A stretch of 37,369 nt of DNA from Caldilineaceae bacterium (GTDB taxonomy: Bacteria > Chloroflexota > Anaerolineae > Caldilineales > Caldilineaceae). The notes beneath the pieces were generated by a model. It was not told the DNA's origin and searched no databases. It saw nothing but the letters and a program-made list of their open reading frames with translations. Each line of letters begins with the position of its first letter. The stretch's first letter is position 1. The DNA is taken from the NCBI GenBank assembly GCA_022824685.1, contig JAJDZJ010000128.1, positions 1 to 37,369 on the forward strand, in the 5' to 3' direction. A program made the translations under genes and the position numbers. Below, piece after piece: positions 12,954 through 19,627 of the stretch.

Positions 12954-14279
12954 TTAGGACATTTCCCAGAGCAGGCGCAGAGGTACCGCGTAAAGGCCTT
13001 CGTCGAAGCGAACGCTCGTTTCACCATCGTAGAGAACCACCCCACTTGAGAAACGACTGCCTGCGGCCGCCCTGAGTTTGCGCAAGGCGCGGAAATCGGC
13101 TGCTTTCACAGTTGCGCCGGCCTTGATCTCTACGCCAGCCAGCGCGCGTGCCCCTCGTTCGAGGACAATATCCACTTCGGCGCCGTCTCTGTCCCGAAAG
13201 TGATAGAAGGAGACAGGGTCGGCATGCCAACTGGCTTGACGCCGCAGTTCCTGATAAGCAAAGGTCTCCAGCATCTGTCCCAACAAGGTGCGGTCTACCG
13301 TGAGATCGGCAGCGTCTACACCGAGCAGAGTACAGGCCAGACCGGTATCACCAAGGTGGAGTTTGGGCGTCTTGATGAGCCGCTTCAGACGATTGCTGTG
13401 CCAGGGCGGTAGCTGCTCCAGCAAAAACACCCGCTCTAGCAAGGTGACGTAATCTCGAACTGTGGTGCGACTGACTTGGAACGGAGCGGCCAACTCGGAG
13501 AGGTTAAAGAGAGTCGCTGTCTGCACAGCCGCGTGCCTCATCAGTCGCGGCAGCACGTCAAGGGAACGGATGCGGGCGATCTCAGGTACGTCCCGCTCCA
13601 TCTGGGCATCGAGAAAGTTGCGATACCAGTTGGCGCGACGCCGGCCAGCTGGCCGCGCCAGAGCCGCGGGATACCCTCCCGACACGACCCGCTCAATGAG
13701 CGCGCGCCCCAGGCGCTCGGTGCGTCCGCTCTCGAATCCACGACCGAACAGGGAATCAAGAAAGCCTGGGGACCAGTCCGCGCCGCGGGATGAATCCGGT
13801 CCTCCCTGCAACTCACACTGTGCCAGCGGATGCAGTCTGACCGTTTCCATGCGTCCGGCCAAAGAATCTGACAGTGCCGGAGTCTGCAAAACGTTGCTCG
13901 AACCCGTTAGAAGGAAACGTCCGGGCAACCGCCTGCGGTCCACTTCCAGTTTCAAGGCGGCAAAGAGCGCAGGTACCCGCTGTACTTCGTCTAGGATAAC
14001 CCGACCGGGCAGTTCGGCAACAAAGCCCAGCGGATCGGCCTCAGCGCCCGCGCGGACAACTTCATCATCAAAGGAGAAGTATAGGTAGTCTTCGGGTAAG
14101 CCGGATCGACGGCCAGACCGGCGTTTCCCCTCGGGCGAGTATTCTGAAGTGCAGACTAGCTGGGCAAGGGTGGTCTTGCCACACTGCCGCGGGCCCTGGA
14201 TCAAAACGACCGGGGAGTCCTCCAGCGCCTCAACTAAACGCCGTTCGGTGAAACGCGGGTAAAGAATGTCCTCTGCCAT
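12954..14279 (-). CDS. AAA ATPase of the DUF4143 family (AAA_14)
   Basis: The start at ATG 14279 gives 441 residues (MAEDILYPRFTERRLVEAL). A longer frame upstream would run through a tandem repeat. Walker A GPRQCGKTT is at residues 29-37, Walker B VILDEVQ at 94-100 and the sensor-like LLTGSS follows. The middle region VSRTTVRDYVTLLERVFLLEQLPPW contains a winged-helix segment. The C-terminal DUF4143 part (DGAEVDIVLERGARALAGVEIKAG) resembles a PD-(D/E)XK-like nuclease fold: D and E-x-K are present. These proteins are common near toxin-antitoxin and mobile genes; their role is not settled. The sequence looks intact. Confidence 0.9.
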   Translation of the reverse strand: MAEDILYPRFTERRLVEALEDSPVVLIQGPRQCGKTTLAQLVCTSEYSPEGKRRSGRRSGLPEDYLYFSFDDEVVRAGAEADPLGFVAELPGRVILDEVQRVPALFAALKLEVDRRRLPGRFLLTGSSNVLQTPALSDSLAGRMETVRLHPLAQCELQGGPDSSRGADWSPGFLDSLFGRGFESGRTERLGRALIERVVSGGYPAALARPAGRRRANWYRNFLDAQMERDVPEIARIRSLDVLPRLMRHAAVQTATLFNLSELAAPFQVSRTTVRDYVTLLERVFLLEQLPPWHSNRLKRLIKTPKLHLGDTGLACTLLGVDAADLTVDRTLLGQMLETFAYQELRRQASWHADPVSFYHFRDRDGAEVDIVLERGARALAGVEIKAGATVKAADFRALRKLRAAAGSRFSSGVVLYDGETSVRFDEGLYAVPLRLLWEMS

Positions 14280-14345
14280 CGGCTGATTGTAACCCTTAGC
14301 TTCGGCTGATTGCAACCTTAACCCTCGGCTGATTGAGAGCTTCCC
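14279..14345. repeat. 23-bp tandem repeat over the ATPase start
   Basis: Two full units (14279-14301, 14302-14324) and a partial third (from 14325) share TCGGCTGATTGYAACC-CTTA. The array begins at the start codon of the ATPase gene, so on the minus strand it occupies the immediate leader, where a ribosome binding site should be. No clear AGGAG is seen. Confidence 0.7.
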
Positions 14346-14504: not shown

Positions 14505-15395
14505 TCACCCACCCATACGTCCGCAATAGTCCAATTGGTGCGCCACATACATTAGCTCCCTGCGGGCGACCTGCCGCCGGCGCATGGCGAGCCACTCCCC
14601 GAACTCGCCCGCGTCCAATTCCGGATGCCCCCGCAGCGTCGACTCCACGAAGTTCAGGATGCAACTGAGAAAGTAGGCTTCGTTGTGGGGATAAGCCCCA
14701 CCGACTGCATGCACGACCCAATCGGAGCTGCCGGCCGCCAGCACCTCGGCCCCGCACGCCCGCAACGCGTGGAACAGCCTGCGCCCCGTGCGGCTGTCGC
14801 CGGAGGGTTGTCCGTCGGTGATGCGCGTGTCCATCGAGCGGTGATAGAGCGCTTCGATCTGGCCATCCAGCGCCGGATCGACTTCGGGCAGAAAGAGCGT
14901 TGCGCCGTCGAAGTTGATGCTGAAATAGAACAGACCGGGCGCACGCGCCATCTGCAACAGGATGGGCAGCGCGGTCGGCAGGTGGAGAAGGTCCAGCAGC
15001 GCGTGCGCGATGATCAGATCGAAGCGCTGCCGGTTTTCCCGCCGGGCCGCGAACGCATACAGATTGGCCGTCTGCAATCGTACCTGCAGCCCCGATTCCG
15101 TGCTCGCAATCAGGTGCGCCAACCGCCGCCGGGCCGCCTCGATATTTCCCTCCTCGCTATCGATCGCAGTGTAATCAACCGCAAAACTCGAGTCAGAAAA
15201 CAACCCCCACTCGACAACGCGTTCGACCATCGTGCCGATGCCCGCGCCCACTTCGAGCACGCGCAAAGGCCGGTCCGGCGGCAGTGCGCCAGCCACAGCA
15301 TCGGCCAGCGTCTGCCAGACGTGCCGGTTGAGCGCGCGGTCGTCTACGGTGCGCTTGGAGGCCAGGTAGCGGGTGAAATCGATGGCGTCTGTCAT
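14505..15395 (-). CDS. Class I SAM-dependent methyltransferase
   Basis: A 296-residue protein with a Rossmann methyltransferase core. Motif I is LRVLEVGAGIGTMVERV at about residues 43-59, an acidic motif II follows (TAIDSEEGNIEAARRRL), then FDLIIAHALLDLL. The C-terminal third (SDWVVHAVGGAYPHNEAYFL, RRELMYVAHQLDYCG) is specific to this subfamily and I do not recognise its substrate. The start is 15 bp after the GT4 stop. It is the last gene of the minus-strand set that begins with the RibA-RibD fusion, so it probably methylates the product of that pathway. Confidence 0.85.
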   Translation of the reverse strand: MTDAIDFTRYLASKRTVDDRALNRHVWQTLADAVAGALPPDRPLRVLEVGAGIGTMVERVVEWGLFSDSSFAVDYTAIDSEEGNIEAARRRLAHLIASTESGLQVRLQTANLYAFAARRENRQRFDLIIAHALLDLLHLPTALPILLQMARAPGLFYFSINFDGATLFLPEVDPALDGQIEALYHRSMDTRITDGQPSGDSRTGRRLFHALRACGAEVLAAGSSDWVVHAVGGAYPHNEAYFLSCILNFVESTLRGHPELDAGEFGEWLAMRRRQVARRELMYVAHQLDYCGRMGG

Positions 15396-15410: not shown

Positions 15411-16514
15411 TCACCGGACGCAGGCTGCCAGGAACTGGCGTATCTTCGCCGCGGAGTCCGCCCAGCGCGGGTGGGAATCGAAGCGCTGCCGGGCGTTGCG
15501 GCCCAGTTTGGCCAGCTGCTCCCTGTCCTTGGCCAGGCCAGACAGATGCGCGGCGATGCCGTCCGCGTCCGCTGGCTCAAGCGTAAATCCGTTGACGCCG
15601 TGGCTGACGATCTCGCTGCCGCCGCCGTGAACACCGGCCAGCGCCGGCAGCCCGAAGGCCATCGCCTCCAGGTATACGATCCCAAACCCCTCGTAAGACG
15701 GCGCCGCCAGCAGGTGCGCGGCGCTGTACTGCCGTGTCAGCTCGCCGTCCGATACGCGTCCGTGCAGGCGGATGTTCCCATCCAATCCGGCTGCGCTGAT
15801 CTGTTTGCGCACCCCGGCGGCATAAGCGCCATCAACCGCACTGTCGCCGATGACGTCCAGCCGCCAGTCTGTCCGCGGCAGACGGGTGAGCGCGGCGATC
15901 AGATGGTGCAGCCCCTTGCGCGGGATCAGATTGCCGACGAACAGGACGCGCAGCGGGCCAGCGTCGCTCTGCCTGGCGCGGATCAACTCGGCCGCCGCGC
16001 GCTCGTCCGGCGCCGGCAGATGGTCCGCGGCCGGGTACGCGACCACGCCGCCCAACGGAGACAGGTTATCACTCTCTTCTCGCAGTCCGGCCACCGCCTG
16101 CCGGGTCGTCCGGCTGTTGAAGATGAAGCCGTCCACCGAGCGCAGATAGGCGCGTTCGACCGCACGATAAAGCGGCAGCAGACGACGCGGGTGCTGTTCA
16201 CTGCTGCGCAGGTGATGCACGATGCTGATCAGGGGATAGCGGGGTTGGCGCCGCCGCAGCCGCAGGTTGACCAGCGCCAGCGATGGATGGTTCAACTCGT
16301 CCTGCAAGAGAATGTCCACGCGCAGGTCGCGCAGACGCCGGTGCAGGCGCAATGAGAGGTTGTCGGCCAGATGCGCCGGATAGCTGCGCCAGGGGAGCGA
16401 CACGATCTCGACCGCATCGCCGGCCTGGCGCAGATGCTCGACCAGCTTGCGATCATACAGATAGCCGCCCGAGAGAGTATCCAGGGAGCCGTAAATGAGC
16501 AGGCCGATGCGCAT
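15411..16514 (-). CDS. Glycosyltransferase family 4 (GT-B fold)
   Basis: A 367-residue protein. It starts MRIGLLIYGSLDTLSGGYLYD, with a glycine-rich acceptor-side loop. The GT4 donor side follows: LRVLFVGNLIPRKGLHHLI (with the conserved R-K), then the EX7E motif (YEGFGIVYLEAMAFGLP), then GSEIVSHGVNGFTLEP. Such enzymes transfer a sugar from a nucleotide sugar with retention. Placed 21 bp after the PTPS-like gene and 15 bp before the methyltransferase, it probably glycosylates the product of this operon. A cell-surface glycan role is possible but no polysaccharide genes are near. Confidence 0.88.
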   Translation of the reverse strand: MRIGLLIYGSLDTLSGGYLYDRKLVEHLRQAGDAVEIVSLPWRSYPAHLADNLSLRLHRRLRDLRVDILLQDELNHPSLALVNLRLRRRQPRYPLISIVHHLRSSEQHPRRLLPLYRAVERAYLRSVDGFIFNSRTTRQAVAGLREESDNLSPLGGVVAYPAADHLPAPDERAAAELIRARQSDAGPLRVLFVGNLIPRKGLHHLIAALTRLPRTDWRLDVIGDSAVDGAYAAGVRKQISAAGLDGNIRLHGRVSDGELTRQYSAAHLLAAPSYEGFGIVYLEAMAFGLPALAGVHGGGSEIVSHGVNGFTLEPADADGIAAHLSGLAKDREQLAKLGRNARQRFDSHPRWADSAAKIRQFLAACVR

Positions 16515-16535
16515 GGGCCGCGGGGGGGCTCGTGG

Positions 16536-16925
16536 TCAGCGGCCGCCGTTGCGCTCCACCCGGTAGGAGGCCCAGGCGATTTCGTTTTCCCAGATGCGGG
16601 CGGTGATCGCACCGATGTTGGCGGCGTTCAGGCCATTGGAAAAGCTGTTGCCTACGATGCGGCAAAAGTGCTCGATGCTCGGATTGAGTCCGTCGAATTC
16701 CGTCAGTTCATTGAGCGTCTTATCGCGATAGCGGTCCACCAACTCTTCCAACAGCTCCTCTACATGATCGATATCCACCAGGTAGCCGTGCTGGTTCAGT
16801 TCCACGCCCTCCAAGAGGAACTCCAGCCGGTAGTGATGGGAATGCCTGTGATTTTCCGGCCCCCAGTCGCCGCCGATGAGAAAATGCTGGGCGACAAAGT
16901 CCCGCTGCACTGCCAATCTGTACAT
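16536..16925 (-). CDS. PTPS/QueD-like protein lacking the catalytic Cys
   Basis: At 129 residues it has the size of 6-pyruvoyltetrahydropterin synthase / 6-carboxytetrahydropterin synthase. The zinc triad is His14 (AQHF), His26 and His28 (HRH). The pterin-anchoring Glu85 lies in NPSIEHF, equivalent to NPTAE, and LVDIDHVEELL matches the VDF motif. The nucleophilic Cys normally four residues before the H-x-H pair is Gly22 here, with Glu24 nearby. Some PTPS relatives use Glu near this place, so the chemistry may differ from both QueD and PTPS-II. The fold and pterin pocket appear kept. It sits between the dehydrogenase and GT4 genes. Confidence 0.85.
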   Translation of the reverse strand: MYRLAVQRDFVAQHFLIGGDWGPENHRHSHHYRLEFLLEGVELNQHGYLVDIDHVEELLEELVDRYRDKTLNELTEFDGLNPSIEHFCRIVGNSFSNGLNAANIGAITARIWENEIAWASYRVERNGGR

Positions 16926-17009
16926 CGAATCGATCCTTTCGTCCGGGGTCTTGGCTTTCAGTCTATCGCAGCGCGGTCGCGATGTTCACTGAAAACGAAA
17001 AACTGATTG

Positions 17010-18104
17010 CTAGAAGTTGTAGTCGAGAATGACCTGCAAAGTCTGCTCCGGGCGGCTGTCGATCAGCTTGTAGGCTGCAGCGGCCTGCTCCACCGGGAAC
17101 CGGTGCGAGATCAGCTCCTCGGCCGGCAGCTTTGCCAGCAGCTGCCAGGCGCTCTCCATGCGGCGGGCCTTTGTCCAGCGGCCGCGCAGGTGGGGAGCGA
17201 TTGTGCTCACCTGGCTGCTGATCAGGCGGACGCGGTTGCGGTGAAAGGAGCCGCCCAACTGGAGCGCGGCCGCCTTGGTCCCGTACCAGGAGCCGACCAC
17301 GATGCGGCTGTCGAAACCGGCTGCCGAGACCGCCGCATCCAAAGCAGTGGGCTGGCCCGAGAGTTCATAGAGCAGATCGACGCCGCGCCGTTCTCCCGCA
17401 TCTGTCAGTGCCTCCTGCAGCAGGTCAGGGCCGGCGGCGCCGCTAGGGTCGATGGCCTCGCTCGCGCCCAGCCGCAGGGCCAGACGCCGCCGGCGCGGCA
17501 GTGGGTCCACCGCGATCAGCGCATCCAGCGGAAACTGTGCCAGCAGAGCGGTTGTCAGCAGCCCGACGACACCCAGCCCCATCACCGCGACCCGTTCGCC
17601 CACCAGCGGCGCGCCGTCCATCACCAGGTTGACGGCCGTCTCGGCATTGGGCAGCAGCGCGGCCTGCGCCGGCGGCATCCCTTCGGGCACCGGCAGGAGC
17701 GCCTGCGGGCTGGCGCAGAAGTGGCTCTCGTGGGGATGGAAGGCGAAGTAGCAGCGGCTGTCCCCTTCACTCGCGGCGGCTGTCCGCCCGTCCGCTTCCC
17801 GGTTTGCCATCTTTCCAGCCGGCGAACCGGGGAACGCGCAGACGCGCCCTACGCAGGCGTAGCCGTATTTGAGCGGATAGCTTACTTCTCCGGTCAGACC
17901 GGCAATCGAACTGTCGGCGGCCATGCCGGCGGGGACCTGCCCGCGGTAGAAGAGCATCTCCGTGCCGGCGCTGATGGCGGAGACGACCGTTTCGATCAGC
18001 AACTCGCCGCCCTGAGGCGGCGCCATCTCTTCCCTGCATATTTCGACCGCGCCCGGCGCTGTGAACTGCACTGCGCGCCGCTCGACACGATTGGAAGGAT
18101 GCAT
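17010..18104 (-). CDS. Medium-chain dehydrogenase, BchC-like, without visible zinc ligands
   Basis: The start at ATG 18104 overlaps the stop of the RibA-RibD gene by one base (TGATG on the minus strand), so the two are coupled; 364 residues. The Rossmann motif GLGVVG lies in VAVMGLGVVGLLTTALL. The catalytic-domain landmarks of zinc MDRs are altered: GxCGTD is replaced by SAGTEM and GHE by GYA, so the catalytic Cys and His/Glu zinc ligands are missing. The GTE-x-L-x-Y-R-G and YPLKYGYACVGRV patterns recall BchC-type alcohol dehydrogenases. It probably oxidises or reduces a hydroxyalkyl side chain using NAD(P). No other bacteriochlorophyll genes are present, so true BchC function is unlikely. 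Confidence 0.82.
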   Translation of the reverse strand: MHPSNRVERRAVQFTAPGAVEICREEMAPPQGGELLIETVVSAISAGTEMLFYRGQVPAGMAADSSIAGLTGEVSYPLKYGYACVGRVCAFPGSPAGKMANREADGRTAAASEGDSRCYFAFHPHESHFCASPQALLPVPEGMPPAQAALLPNAETAVNLVMDGAPLVGERVAVMGLGVVGLLTTALLAQFPLDALIAVDPLPRRRRLALRLGASEAIDPSGAAGPDLLQEALTDAGERRGVDLLYELSGQPTALDAAVSAAGFDSRIVVGSWYGTKAAALQLGGSFHRNRVRLISSQVSTIAPHLRGRWTKARRMESAWQLLAKLPAEELISHRFPVEQAAAAYKLIDSRPEQTLQVILDYNF

Positions 18105-19627
18105 CACGCGCCGGACCTGCCGTTCCGGGCAGTTCTCTCCCCGAACTCCCCCCACAGTACCGTATCGGTCGCCAGCCGCACCTGCTGGACATTCTGCAGC
18201 CGCGGCATCACGGCGCCGAATTCGCCTCCCGCGCGCGCTGGCTGGATCACCTGGTATCCGCCCAGAAAGACCGGCGCGATCGTGATCACGGCGTAGTCCG
18301 CCAGGCCGTTTTCCAGGAAACTCGTCAGAACGCGGGCGCCCCCTTCGACCATCAGCGAACCGACGCCCTCGGCGCCGAGTTGGGTGAGGAGGGCGGCCAA
18401 ATCCACGCGGCCTTCACTGTCTGCGGGCAGAGTCAGGATACGTGCGCCGGCCTCTTCCAGGTGTCTCCGGCGAGAAGACCGCGCGCCCTCGGGCGTGGTC
18501 GCAATCCAGGCGCGGCCGTGCAGAAGACGGGCGTCCGGCGGCATGCGCAGTAGGGAGTCGACGATCACCGGCTGGGGGTTGTCACCGGAAACCAGCCGCA
18601 CCGTCAATGCGGGATTGTCGGCCAGCACCGTTTCGATGCCGACCAGAATCGCGCTGTGCACGGCCCGCAGCGCGTGGGTCATCGTCAGAGAGGCGGGGCC
18701 GCTGATGGGGAAGGCCGTTCCCTGATCGGTGGTGAGGCAACCGTCCAGGCTTTGGGCATAGCTCAAGGTGACAAATGGCCAGGGAGAGAGAGGTGACGCA
18801 TTCTTCCTCCCTTTATCTCTTTCCTCATCGCGGACATGGCTCTGTATGCGGGTTCGCAAGCCATCGAGTTGCGGCCGATACGCTTCCACCTGGCCATGCG
18901 TGCGGTGTTCTTTCTCTCCTCGCTTCTCTTCACCCTCTTCTACTGTCTCCGGCTCGCCCTGCCCGTTCAGCCTGATGATGTGGCGCATCCGGGCGACCTT
19001 CGTCTCCAGGTAGGCGCGGTTTTCCGGATTCGACCGCATCTGCAGGGGGATCCGTTCCCGCACCTCGACACCCAGCCCGGCCAGACCTTCGATCTTGGCC
19101 GGGTTGTTCGTCAACAACCGCACCGACCGAACGTCCAACTCCCGCAGGATCAGGGCGGCGGCCGTATAGTCCCGCTCGTCGGCCTGGTGGCCCAACAGCA
19201 GGTTGGCGTCAACCGTGTCATAGCCCTCGTCCTGCAGATTGTAGGCACGCAGCTTCTCCTCCAGGCCGATGCCCCGCCCCTCCTGCCGCAGATAGATGAG
19301 CGCGCCCCGTCCTTCCGCGGCGATCGCCTCTATCGCCCGCGTCAACTGCTCGCCGCAGTCGCAGCGTTGCGAGCCCAGCACGTCCCCGGTGAAACATTCC
19401 GAATGGATGCGGACAAGCAGATCCTCGCCCTCGGCGTCCCCGAGCACCAGGGCCAAGTGGTTCTTTTCGTCCCACGCGCTGTAAAAGTGATGCAGGTAGA
19501 AAGCGCCGTCCGCGGTGGGGATGCGGGCCGTGACCGTACGTTTCACCGCCATCCGCGGGCGGCAAGGCGGGCTATTCTTCGATTCAGAGGAGCCCGGAGG
19601 GTGCCCGGCAACGGTTGTATCCGACAT
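18104..19627 (-). CDS. GTP cyclohydrolase II - RibD-type reductase fusion
   Basis: With ATG 19627 the product is 507 residues. Residues ~26-220 are GTP cyclohydrolase II (RibA). Zinc ligands Cys78, Cys89 and Cys91 lie in HSECFTGDVLGSQRCDCG; YLRQEGRGIGL and TNNPAKIEGL complete the active site. It converts GTP to the 2,5-diamino-6-ribosylamino-pyrimidinone phosphate. Residues ~222-283 are a charged, low-complexity linker. Residues ~284-500 are a RibD C-terminal reductase domain (FVTLSYAQSLDG, NPALTVRL, VEGGARVLTSFLENGLAD) that would reduce the ribosyl chain. There is no RibD deaminase domain and no lumazine or riboflavin synthase nearby. A later start, MAVKRTVTARIP at residue 26, is equally plausible. 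It is the first gene of the coupled pterin-like set. Confidence 0.9.
   Translation of the reverse strand: MSDTTVAGHPPGSSESKNSPPCRPRMAVKRTVTARIPTADGAFYLHHFYSAWDEKNHLALVLGDAEGEDLLVRIHSECFTGDVLGSQRCDCGEQLTRAIEAIAAEGRGALIYLRQEGRGIGLEEKLRAYNLQDEGYDTVDANLLLGHQADERDYTAAALILRELDVRSVRLLTNNPAKIEGLAGLGVEVRERIPLQMRSNPENRAYLETKVARMRHIIRLNGQGEPETVEEGEEKRGEKEHRTHGQVEAYRPQLDGLRTRIQSHVRDEERDKGRKNASPLSPWPFVTLSYAQSLDGCLTTDQGTAFPISGPASLTMTHALRAVHSAILVGIETVLADNPALTVRLVSGDNPQPVIVDSLLRMPPDARLLHGRAWIATTPEGARSSRRRHLEEAGARILTLPADSEGRVDLAALLTQLGAEGVGSLMVEGGARVLTSFLENGLADYAVITIAPVFLGGYQVIQPARAGGEFGAVMPRLQNVQQVRLATDTVLWGEFGERTARNGRSGA

Follow-up and report, generated by a model that had tools for sequence, protein, structure and literature searches.

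A glutamate-bearing PTPS-family protein encoded with GTP cyclohydrolase II in a conserved operon of Caldilineaceae

The solved structure nearest in sequence and fold to the protein described here is SCO6650 of Streptomyces coelicolor (3d7j), a PTPS-IV protein that reportedly contains no zinc and has no PTPS activity, its pterin-binding residues being kept. Among the other subfamilies, excerpts of PMC5041015 define PTPS-I (QueD) by the motif CxxxHGH and PTPS-III by ExxHGH, and mention an unpublished role in F420 for PTPS-IV. PTPS-IV with neighbours of the GTP cyclohydrolase II (GCH II) and RibD_C types is already in print: excerpts of PMC5445326 list PF00925 and PF01872 as its neighbours, labelling PF00925 as GTP cyclohydrolase I/FolE2, where Pfam's PF00925 is GTP cyclohydrolase II. 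It is routine to give PTPS/QueD-like proteins a name taken from queuosine; the gene, clade and gene cassette presented here point to a different pathway.

The window, the whole stretch of 37,369 nucleotides analysed here, comes from a Caldilineaceae bacterium (Chloroflexota) with a genome of 5.23 Mb, 98.73% complete, in which the gene under study is the only PTPS-family gene found. The open reading frame picked out by an earlier, sequence-only reading is confirmed exactly, on the minus strand (Table 1). Since 48 of the 100 genomes searched (its own included) contain a match, 39 of them at no less than 50% identity, it is a real gene; the plus-strand open reading frame over the same span (16371-17006) matched no Pfam family. 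Membership of the PTPS superfamily follows from a profile score above the curated cut-off (Pfam PTPS, PF01242: 85.4 bits against 22.4) together with a T-fold that resembles PTPS, QueD and SCO6650 structures at Z scores of 14-18. In structure comparison the AlphaFold2 model, built from 62 input sequences with a mean pLDDT of 92.2, lies closest to SCO6650 (Z 17.6 over 124 residues), followed by PH0634 (16.0), E. coli QueD (15.6-15.7) and human PTPS (15.5); Foldseek ranks SCO6650 first and E. coli QueD second. For comparison we used the best 80 loci among 441 relatives, found by a scan that relied on motifs of the HGYLVDI and FVAQHFLIG types and not on residue 24; the named sequences nearest to the window protein in this set (L042-L057, at 96-84% identity) come from MAGs of Caldilineaceae, Chloroflexota.

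The sequence-only reading had described an intact zinc triad of His14, His26 and His28, with Gly22 in place of the catalytic Cys, Glu24 two residues before the His pair, and Glu85 kept. All of these letters are present, but the numbering of the site was off by two. In an HMM alignment to solved structures, His28-Ser29-His30 lines up with the HGH of QueD and PTPS, and residue 24 with the Cys of P. aeruginosa 2oba, rat PTPS and human PTPS; alignment to four homologues from the same class that carry CxxxHGH returns the identical register, again with residue 24 in the Cys slot. The supposed His26/His28 pair should therefore read His28/His30, and the Cys position is Glu24. The triad is thus kept, its third ligand being His30 rather than His26: in an alignment of 62 relatives (the window protein and 61 of the 80 loci), His14 and His30 are invariant and His28 is found in 60, with Asn in the other two, whereas His26 occurs in only 2. 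By homology, His14, His28 and His30 are the predicted zinc ligands. The Cys slot is occupied not by Gly22, itself present in 62/62, but by Glu24, which is invariant both in this alignment and across the 80 loci (best 80 of 441 relatives), where residue 28 is His in 78 and Asn in 2. Asn25, Glu85 and Glu113 are likewise found in 62/62, the two glutamates being presumably the pterin-binding residues, by homology.

The Asp-His pair of QueD corresponds to Asp68-Lys69 in the window protein. Asp68 is kept in 61/62, and position 69 is variable (K 41, Q 7, R 7, H 3, A 2, N 1, S 1); as the His presumed to be catalytic is not maintained there, the window protein probably does not carry out the QueD/PTPS reaction itself. 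Cys88, considered as an additional nucleophile, is Cys in only 20 of the 62 and was ruled out as not conserved, so that the active site holds no other conserved Cys. The idea behind the earlier reading, a lost Cys and a role other than queuosine, therefore holds, and its residue details do not. At three loci Asn replaces the zinc ligand His28, with Glu24 and His30 kept (L034:9573-9947, L071:5639-6010 and L118:10001-10375; L034 and L118 are sisters in the tree described below, and L071 lies apart from both). One further copy, L036:9689-10048 (genome G094; 40% identical), is degenerate, having lost His14, Glu24 and His28 and kept His30 and the rest, and no cassette partner was found near it.

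Motif, cut-off, tree and context speak against assignment to QueD, PTPS-II or PTPS-III, which was rejected. Against the NCBIfam QueD profile TIGR03367 the window protein scores 42.2 bits, below the cut-off of 89.25, and it reads ExxxHSH in place of CxxxHGH. The PTPS-II (biopterin) motif CxxxxxHGH is absent, with Gly22 at -6 and Glu24 at -4 of His28, as is the PTPS-III (folate) motif ExxHGH, position -3 being Asn25 in 62/62; the likeness once drawn between Glu24 and the Glu-using PTPS relatives fails on this spacing, ExxxHSH putting the glutamate in the Cys slot. Instead of the PTPS-IV signature FGPAQ the window protein has WGPEN (WGxEN in 62/62, GxEG in 8/8 haloarchaeal copies), and the PTPS-IV neighbour pair PF00925 and PF01872 is present in the window operon. 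These motifs set the Glu24 clade apart from PTPS-I to -IV; it may coincide with PTPS-V or -VI.

The tree comprises 51 proteins of our own selection over 127 columns and draws on 27 of the 80 loci, the degenerate L036 being left out; only five of its sequences have CxxxHGH, some PDB entries are partial fragments, and the program flagged L041, 2dj6 and 2oba as long branches. In it a branch with support 99/96 separates 34 Glu24 proteins from the rest: the window protein, other Chloroflexota, Desulfomonile-type (Desulfobacterota-type) and other bins, and four haloarchaeal plasmid proteins. Eight SCO6650-like proteins form a separate clade (100/99). The two groups together with the long-branch L041 split from the CxxxHGH proteins at 96/85, and a joint clade of the two groups alone is not rejected (p-AU 0.496). 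The window protein accordingly stands outside the CxxxHGH proteins, with no tight grouping with QueD, and the shift of function away from QueD that had been proposed from the letters is supported by this position, by the TIGR03367 score and by an operon in which profile scans found no queC, queE or queF.

A link to GTP cyclohydrolase II, hinted at in the sequence-only reading, is real, as the enzyme is encoded in the PTPS operon itself. On the minus strand the order is GCH II-RibD_C fusion, MDR dehydrogenase, PTPS, glycosyltransferase, methyltransferase; the dehydrogenase start overlaps the stop of the fusion (TGATG), and the gaps between the last four genes are 84, 21 and 15 bases. The RibA domain scores 240.8 bits against ribA TIGR00505 (cut-off 205.85) and the RibD_C domain 152.3 bits against ribD_Cterm TIGR00227 (cut-off 150.15), while a profile search of the fusion, whose likely start is 19552 or 19627, matched no deaminase domain. 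Of 57 GCH II sequences read, a set with duplicates (the window genome is counted twice, as L133 and L134, and so is each of two RibH genomes), 56 have Tyr at the position of E. coli Tyr105, and Streptomyces L124 alone has Met; by this motif only, a FAPy-type GCH II was ruled out for the window. The dehydrogenase matches Pfam ADH_zinc_N and not ADH_N, and its best NCBIfam match, BchC, reaches 76.1 bits, far under the cut-off of 291.25. An SxGTE motif (S62, G64, T65 and E66 in 64/64 matches read) and a GYx motif (GYA in the window; G98 and Y99 in 65/65 matches read) take the place of the zinc-ligand motifs usual in MDR enzymes, and the protein is most likely a zinc-less MDR. Profile scans (Pfam, NCBIfam) of the operon proteins found no queC, queE or queF. 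Directly upstream of the operon lies a small molybdopterin-binding oxidoreductase (PF00174; 19647-20273, minus strand), which stays beside it only in the genus and some further loci; downstream, an AAA_14/DUF4143 ATPase (12954-14315, minus strand) adjoins the operon in some, not all, members of the genus.

Table 1. The five operon genes in the window, with the basis of each assignment.
Feature	Coordinates	Strand	Basis
GTP cyclohydrolase II (RibA domain ~19046-19540) and RibD C-terminal reductase domain (~18158-18778), fused	18104..19552	-	Profile matches
MDR-family (BchC-like) dehydrogenase	17010..18104	-	Profile match
PTPS-family T-fold protein, Glu24 in Cys position	16536..16925	-	129 aa, single ORF
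Family 4 glycosyltransferase (GT4)	15411..16514	-	Profile match and recurring gene order
Class I SAM-dependent methyltransferase	14505..15395	-	Pfam scores just under cut-offs; conserved in cassette

The gene order of the operon recurs across the 80 loci (best 80 of 441 relatives). For a census of neighbours we kept the 52 loci with at least 4.5 kb before and at least 3.5 kb after the PTPS gene, dropping 28 with short flanks, and searched them with the window's own proteins as BLAST queries, which divergent partners may escape. RibA was found in 37 of the 52, RibD_C in 43, the dehydrogenase (ADH) in 47, GT4 in 46 and the methyltransferase (MT) in 42, with all five in 30. Thirteen of these loci come from the window's genus, and all 13 have the full set; the 39 outside it have RibA in 24, RibD_C in 30, ADH in 34, GT4 in 33, MT in 29 and all five in 17. 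At least one partner is missing from 22 of the 39: one in nine loci, two in eight, three in two, four in one, and all five in L090 and L107. Most of these genomes are MAGs, and single contigs may be misbinned, as with L089, which is titled Methanotrichaceae. Among the Chloroflexota loci, clustering with Pfam run on one representative of each cluster identifies a CDP-OH phosphotransferase in 11 and LPG_synthase membrane proteins in 12. A CDP-alcohol phosphatidyltransferase and an LPG-synthase-type membrane protein lie together beside the cassette at L078:4978-7210 (Chloroflexota) and in the Rhizobiaceae loci L158 and L159. Such neighbours hint at a lipid-linked product.

Plasmids carry related cassettes in both domains. 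From 31 plasmid matches (one record counted in both lists) we examined 19, one of which, L160, has no annotation. ADH adjoins PTPS in 16 of the 18 annotated loci, which are haloarchaeal, proteobacterial and actinobacterial; in L127 a small opposite-strand open reading frame lies between the two, and the exceptions are the Streptomyces loci L129 and L157, SCO6650-like copies that lie apart from the cassette, each with MEKHLA-domain, cupin and MBL-fold genes in its vicinity. In the first 11 plasmid loci, BLAST with the window proteins finds ADH in 10, GT4 in 7, RibD_C in 4, RibA in 2 and MT in 4, the last in haloarchaea only. All eight haloarchaeal copies have Glu24 and HSH. Three of their loci, all from Haloarcula with near-identical surroundings, encode a GCH IIa, which we take to be of the ArfA type; five have a CDP-alcohol phosphatidyltransferase, and L155 has a creatininase-family gene. 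The ten SCO6650-like plasmid copies read AQ and HGA instead of Glu24 and HSH, and their loci contain RibA in 4, a RibD-family gene in 6 and a CDP-alcohol phosphatidyltransferase in 4. In Streptomyces L124, whose GCH II carries Met instead of Tyr105, a creatininase-family gene adjoins. The Met form of GCH II stops at the formyl compound (formamidopyrimidine), and creatininase-fold enzymes of this family can remove the formyl group. The ADH-PTPS core is thus accompanied by three front ends for opening the ring of GTP: GCH II in the window, GCH IIa in Haloarcula, and Met-GCH II with a creatininase-family protein in L124. That one core should lie beside three kinds of GTP ring opening is the strongest pointer to the first step of the pathway.

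Which pathway this is can be weighed against the riboflavin and folate genes of 47 genomes: the window's, 16 more of its genus, 12 of its family and 18 of its class. GCH II was found in 27 of them. In 24 it occurs without RibH, and all 24 have a Glu24-type PTPS (at least 50% identity); the other three (G017, G047 and G061) have RibH and none has such a PTPS (Fisher p 0.0003; counting the genus as one gives 0.006). In the window genome the operon's GCH II is the only one found, and throughout the genus (17/17) GCH II is single and lies on the same contig as PTPS, about 3 kb away or less. That the operon should serve riboflavin, with PTPS as a passenger, would agree with RibA and RibD_C domains that pass the NCBIfam cut-offs, but no lumazine synthase (RibH) was matched in any of the 17 genomes of the genus and the 3 genomes with GCH II and RibH never overlap with the 24 with GCH II and PTPS, and we hold this to be very improbable. 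PTPS without any GCH II found occurs in the fragmented assemblies G019 and G026 and in G059, where none of the partners lies near the PTPS copy (L035); in G028 the two genes are on different contigs. Folate is the stronger of these two candidates. Here the operon's GCH II and the Glu-type PTPS would replace FolE and FolB, giving 6-hydroxymethyl-dihydropterin or a related pterin for a FolK-FolP fusion: HPPK is present in all 17 genomes of the genus (G000-G016), joined in one protein with dihydropteroate synthase in the two genomes where it was read (G000, G004), and no FolE, FolE2 or FolB was matched in any of them. A Glu24 PTPS accompanies HPPK in 20/20 genomes without FolE or FolE2, compared with 2/9 that have either one, a pattern that is suggestive, post hoc and dominated by one genus (4/4 against 2/9 with the genus counted once, Fisher p 0.02, also post hoc). 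PTPS-III enzymes moreover serve folate synthesis and, in excerpts of PMC5041015, are annotated as bypassing FolB. Five operon-bearing genomes, however, have no HPPK match (G018, G023, G025, G027, G028), two others (G019, G021) have FolE2, FolB and HPPK as well, G059, one of the 20, has PTPS and HPPK but no GCH II and no partners near its PTPS, and a glycosyltransferase and a methyltransferase would be superfluous for folate; a folate bypass therefore seems to us distinctly unlikely.

Two further explanations concern the protein itself. It might be a non-enzymatic subunit that binds a ligand or acts as a scaffold, like SCO6650, its closest structure, and the replacement of both the Cys and the catalytic His would fit such a role; a dead enzyme, though, would not be expected to retain all three histidines for zinc and, in the Cys slot, a Glu that never varies, and SCO6650, with HGA, has not kept them. 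Because its zinc histidines are kept, the Glu24 clade is the better candidate for an active enzyme, and we think a purely structural role unlikely, if not to be dismissed lightly. An ordinary QueD/PTPS disguised by a sequencing or alignment quirk is, by comparison, barely credible: automatic annotation does name the haloarchaeal relatives 6-carboxytetrahydropterin synthase, but Glu24 recurs in 80/80 loci, the protein lies outside the CxxxHGH group and under the QueD cut-off, and the one weak QueC-family match in the window genome is a GMP synthase, with no true QueC found there.

We therefore favour, as probable though by no means settled, a T-fold enzyme that represents a PTPS subfamily of its own and works in a dedicated pathway from ring-opened GTP. 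The best reading of the product is a pteridine or diaminopyrimidine that has been glycosylated and methylated and is neither riboflavin nor queuosine. GCH II would open GTP to 2,5-diamino-6-ribosylamino-pyrimidinone phosphate, and the RibD_C domain, which is DHFR-like, would reduce the ring-opened product, either from ribosyl to ribityl or at a pteridine ring. In the PTPS relative, Glu113 (and Glu85) may hold the 2-amino-4-oxo edge of the substrate and a putative zinc at His14, His28 and His30 the side-chain hydroxyls, with Glu24 as the putative acid-base residue where QueD uses Cys; the T-fold step might then be closure of a pteridine ring, or trimming or rearrangement of the side chain. The MDR dehydrogenase, by oxidation or reduction, the glycosyltransferase and the methyltransferase would finish the product. 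More tentatively, and with less conviction than for the pathway itself, one may imagine a GTP-derived metabolite, widespread and so far undescribed, common to bacteria and haloarchaea, ring-opened, reduced, passed through a Glu/zinc T-fold step, glycosylated and methylated, which would be a lipid-anchored pteridine where a CDP-alcohol phosphatidyltransferase and an LPG-synthase-type protein adjoin; under that reading the route in the genus may also feed the FolK-FolP fusion.

On this evidence GCH II would be kept by the pathway in genomes where no lumazine synthase was found. If the proposal is true, Bacteria and Archaea would have a new class of GTP-derived metabolites in common, the PTPS fold would have exchanged Cys for Glu in a second way, this time within the Cys slot, and automatic annotations of QueD-like genes would need correcting. 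The open-access literature, to which our search was confined (subscription papers and preprints lay outside its scope), yielded neither the Glu24 clade, its ExxxHSH signature, its haloarchaeal extension nor the absence of RibH, and searching by title and the start of the abstract found no description of the cassette's function there.

The SCO6650-like plasmid relatives occur, as the window clade does, in a cassette with ADH, GT4, MT and GCH II or RibD_C of varying completeness; PTPS-IV copies, however, read [FG]xAQ...HGA, with Ala-Gln around the Cys slot and without the second histidine of HGH (10/10), where the window clade has Glu and HSH. With QueD/PTPS-I (E. coli 4ntk) the window protein has in common the T-fold, the aligned zinc histidines, NP[ST]xE and Glu113, and differs from it in Glu for Cys, in Asp-Lys or a variable residue for Asp-His, in its operon and in a score under the QueD cut-off. 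The PTPS-III proteins (Plasmodium 1y13/2a0s and Pyrococcus PH0634, 2dj6, the latter placed there by its ExxHGH motif; Z 14.4-16.0) likewise have Glu instead of Cys near the zinc site, but the window clade reads ExxxHSH and has Asn25 at the position of the PTPS-III Glu. Haloarchaeal plasmid proteins annotated as 6-carboxytetrahydropterin synthase (for example WP_324760651.1) belong to the same clade as the window protein, with Glu24 and HSH, and lie in an ADH-PTPS arrangement with MT and usually GT4; they differ in having Gly25 instead of Asn25 and, where a front end adjoins (3/8), GCH IIa.
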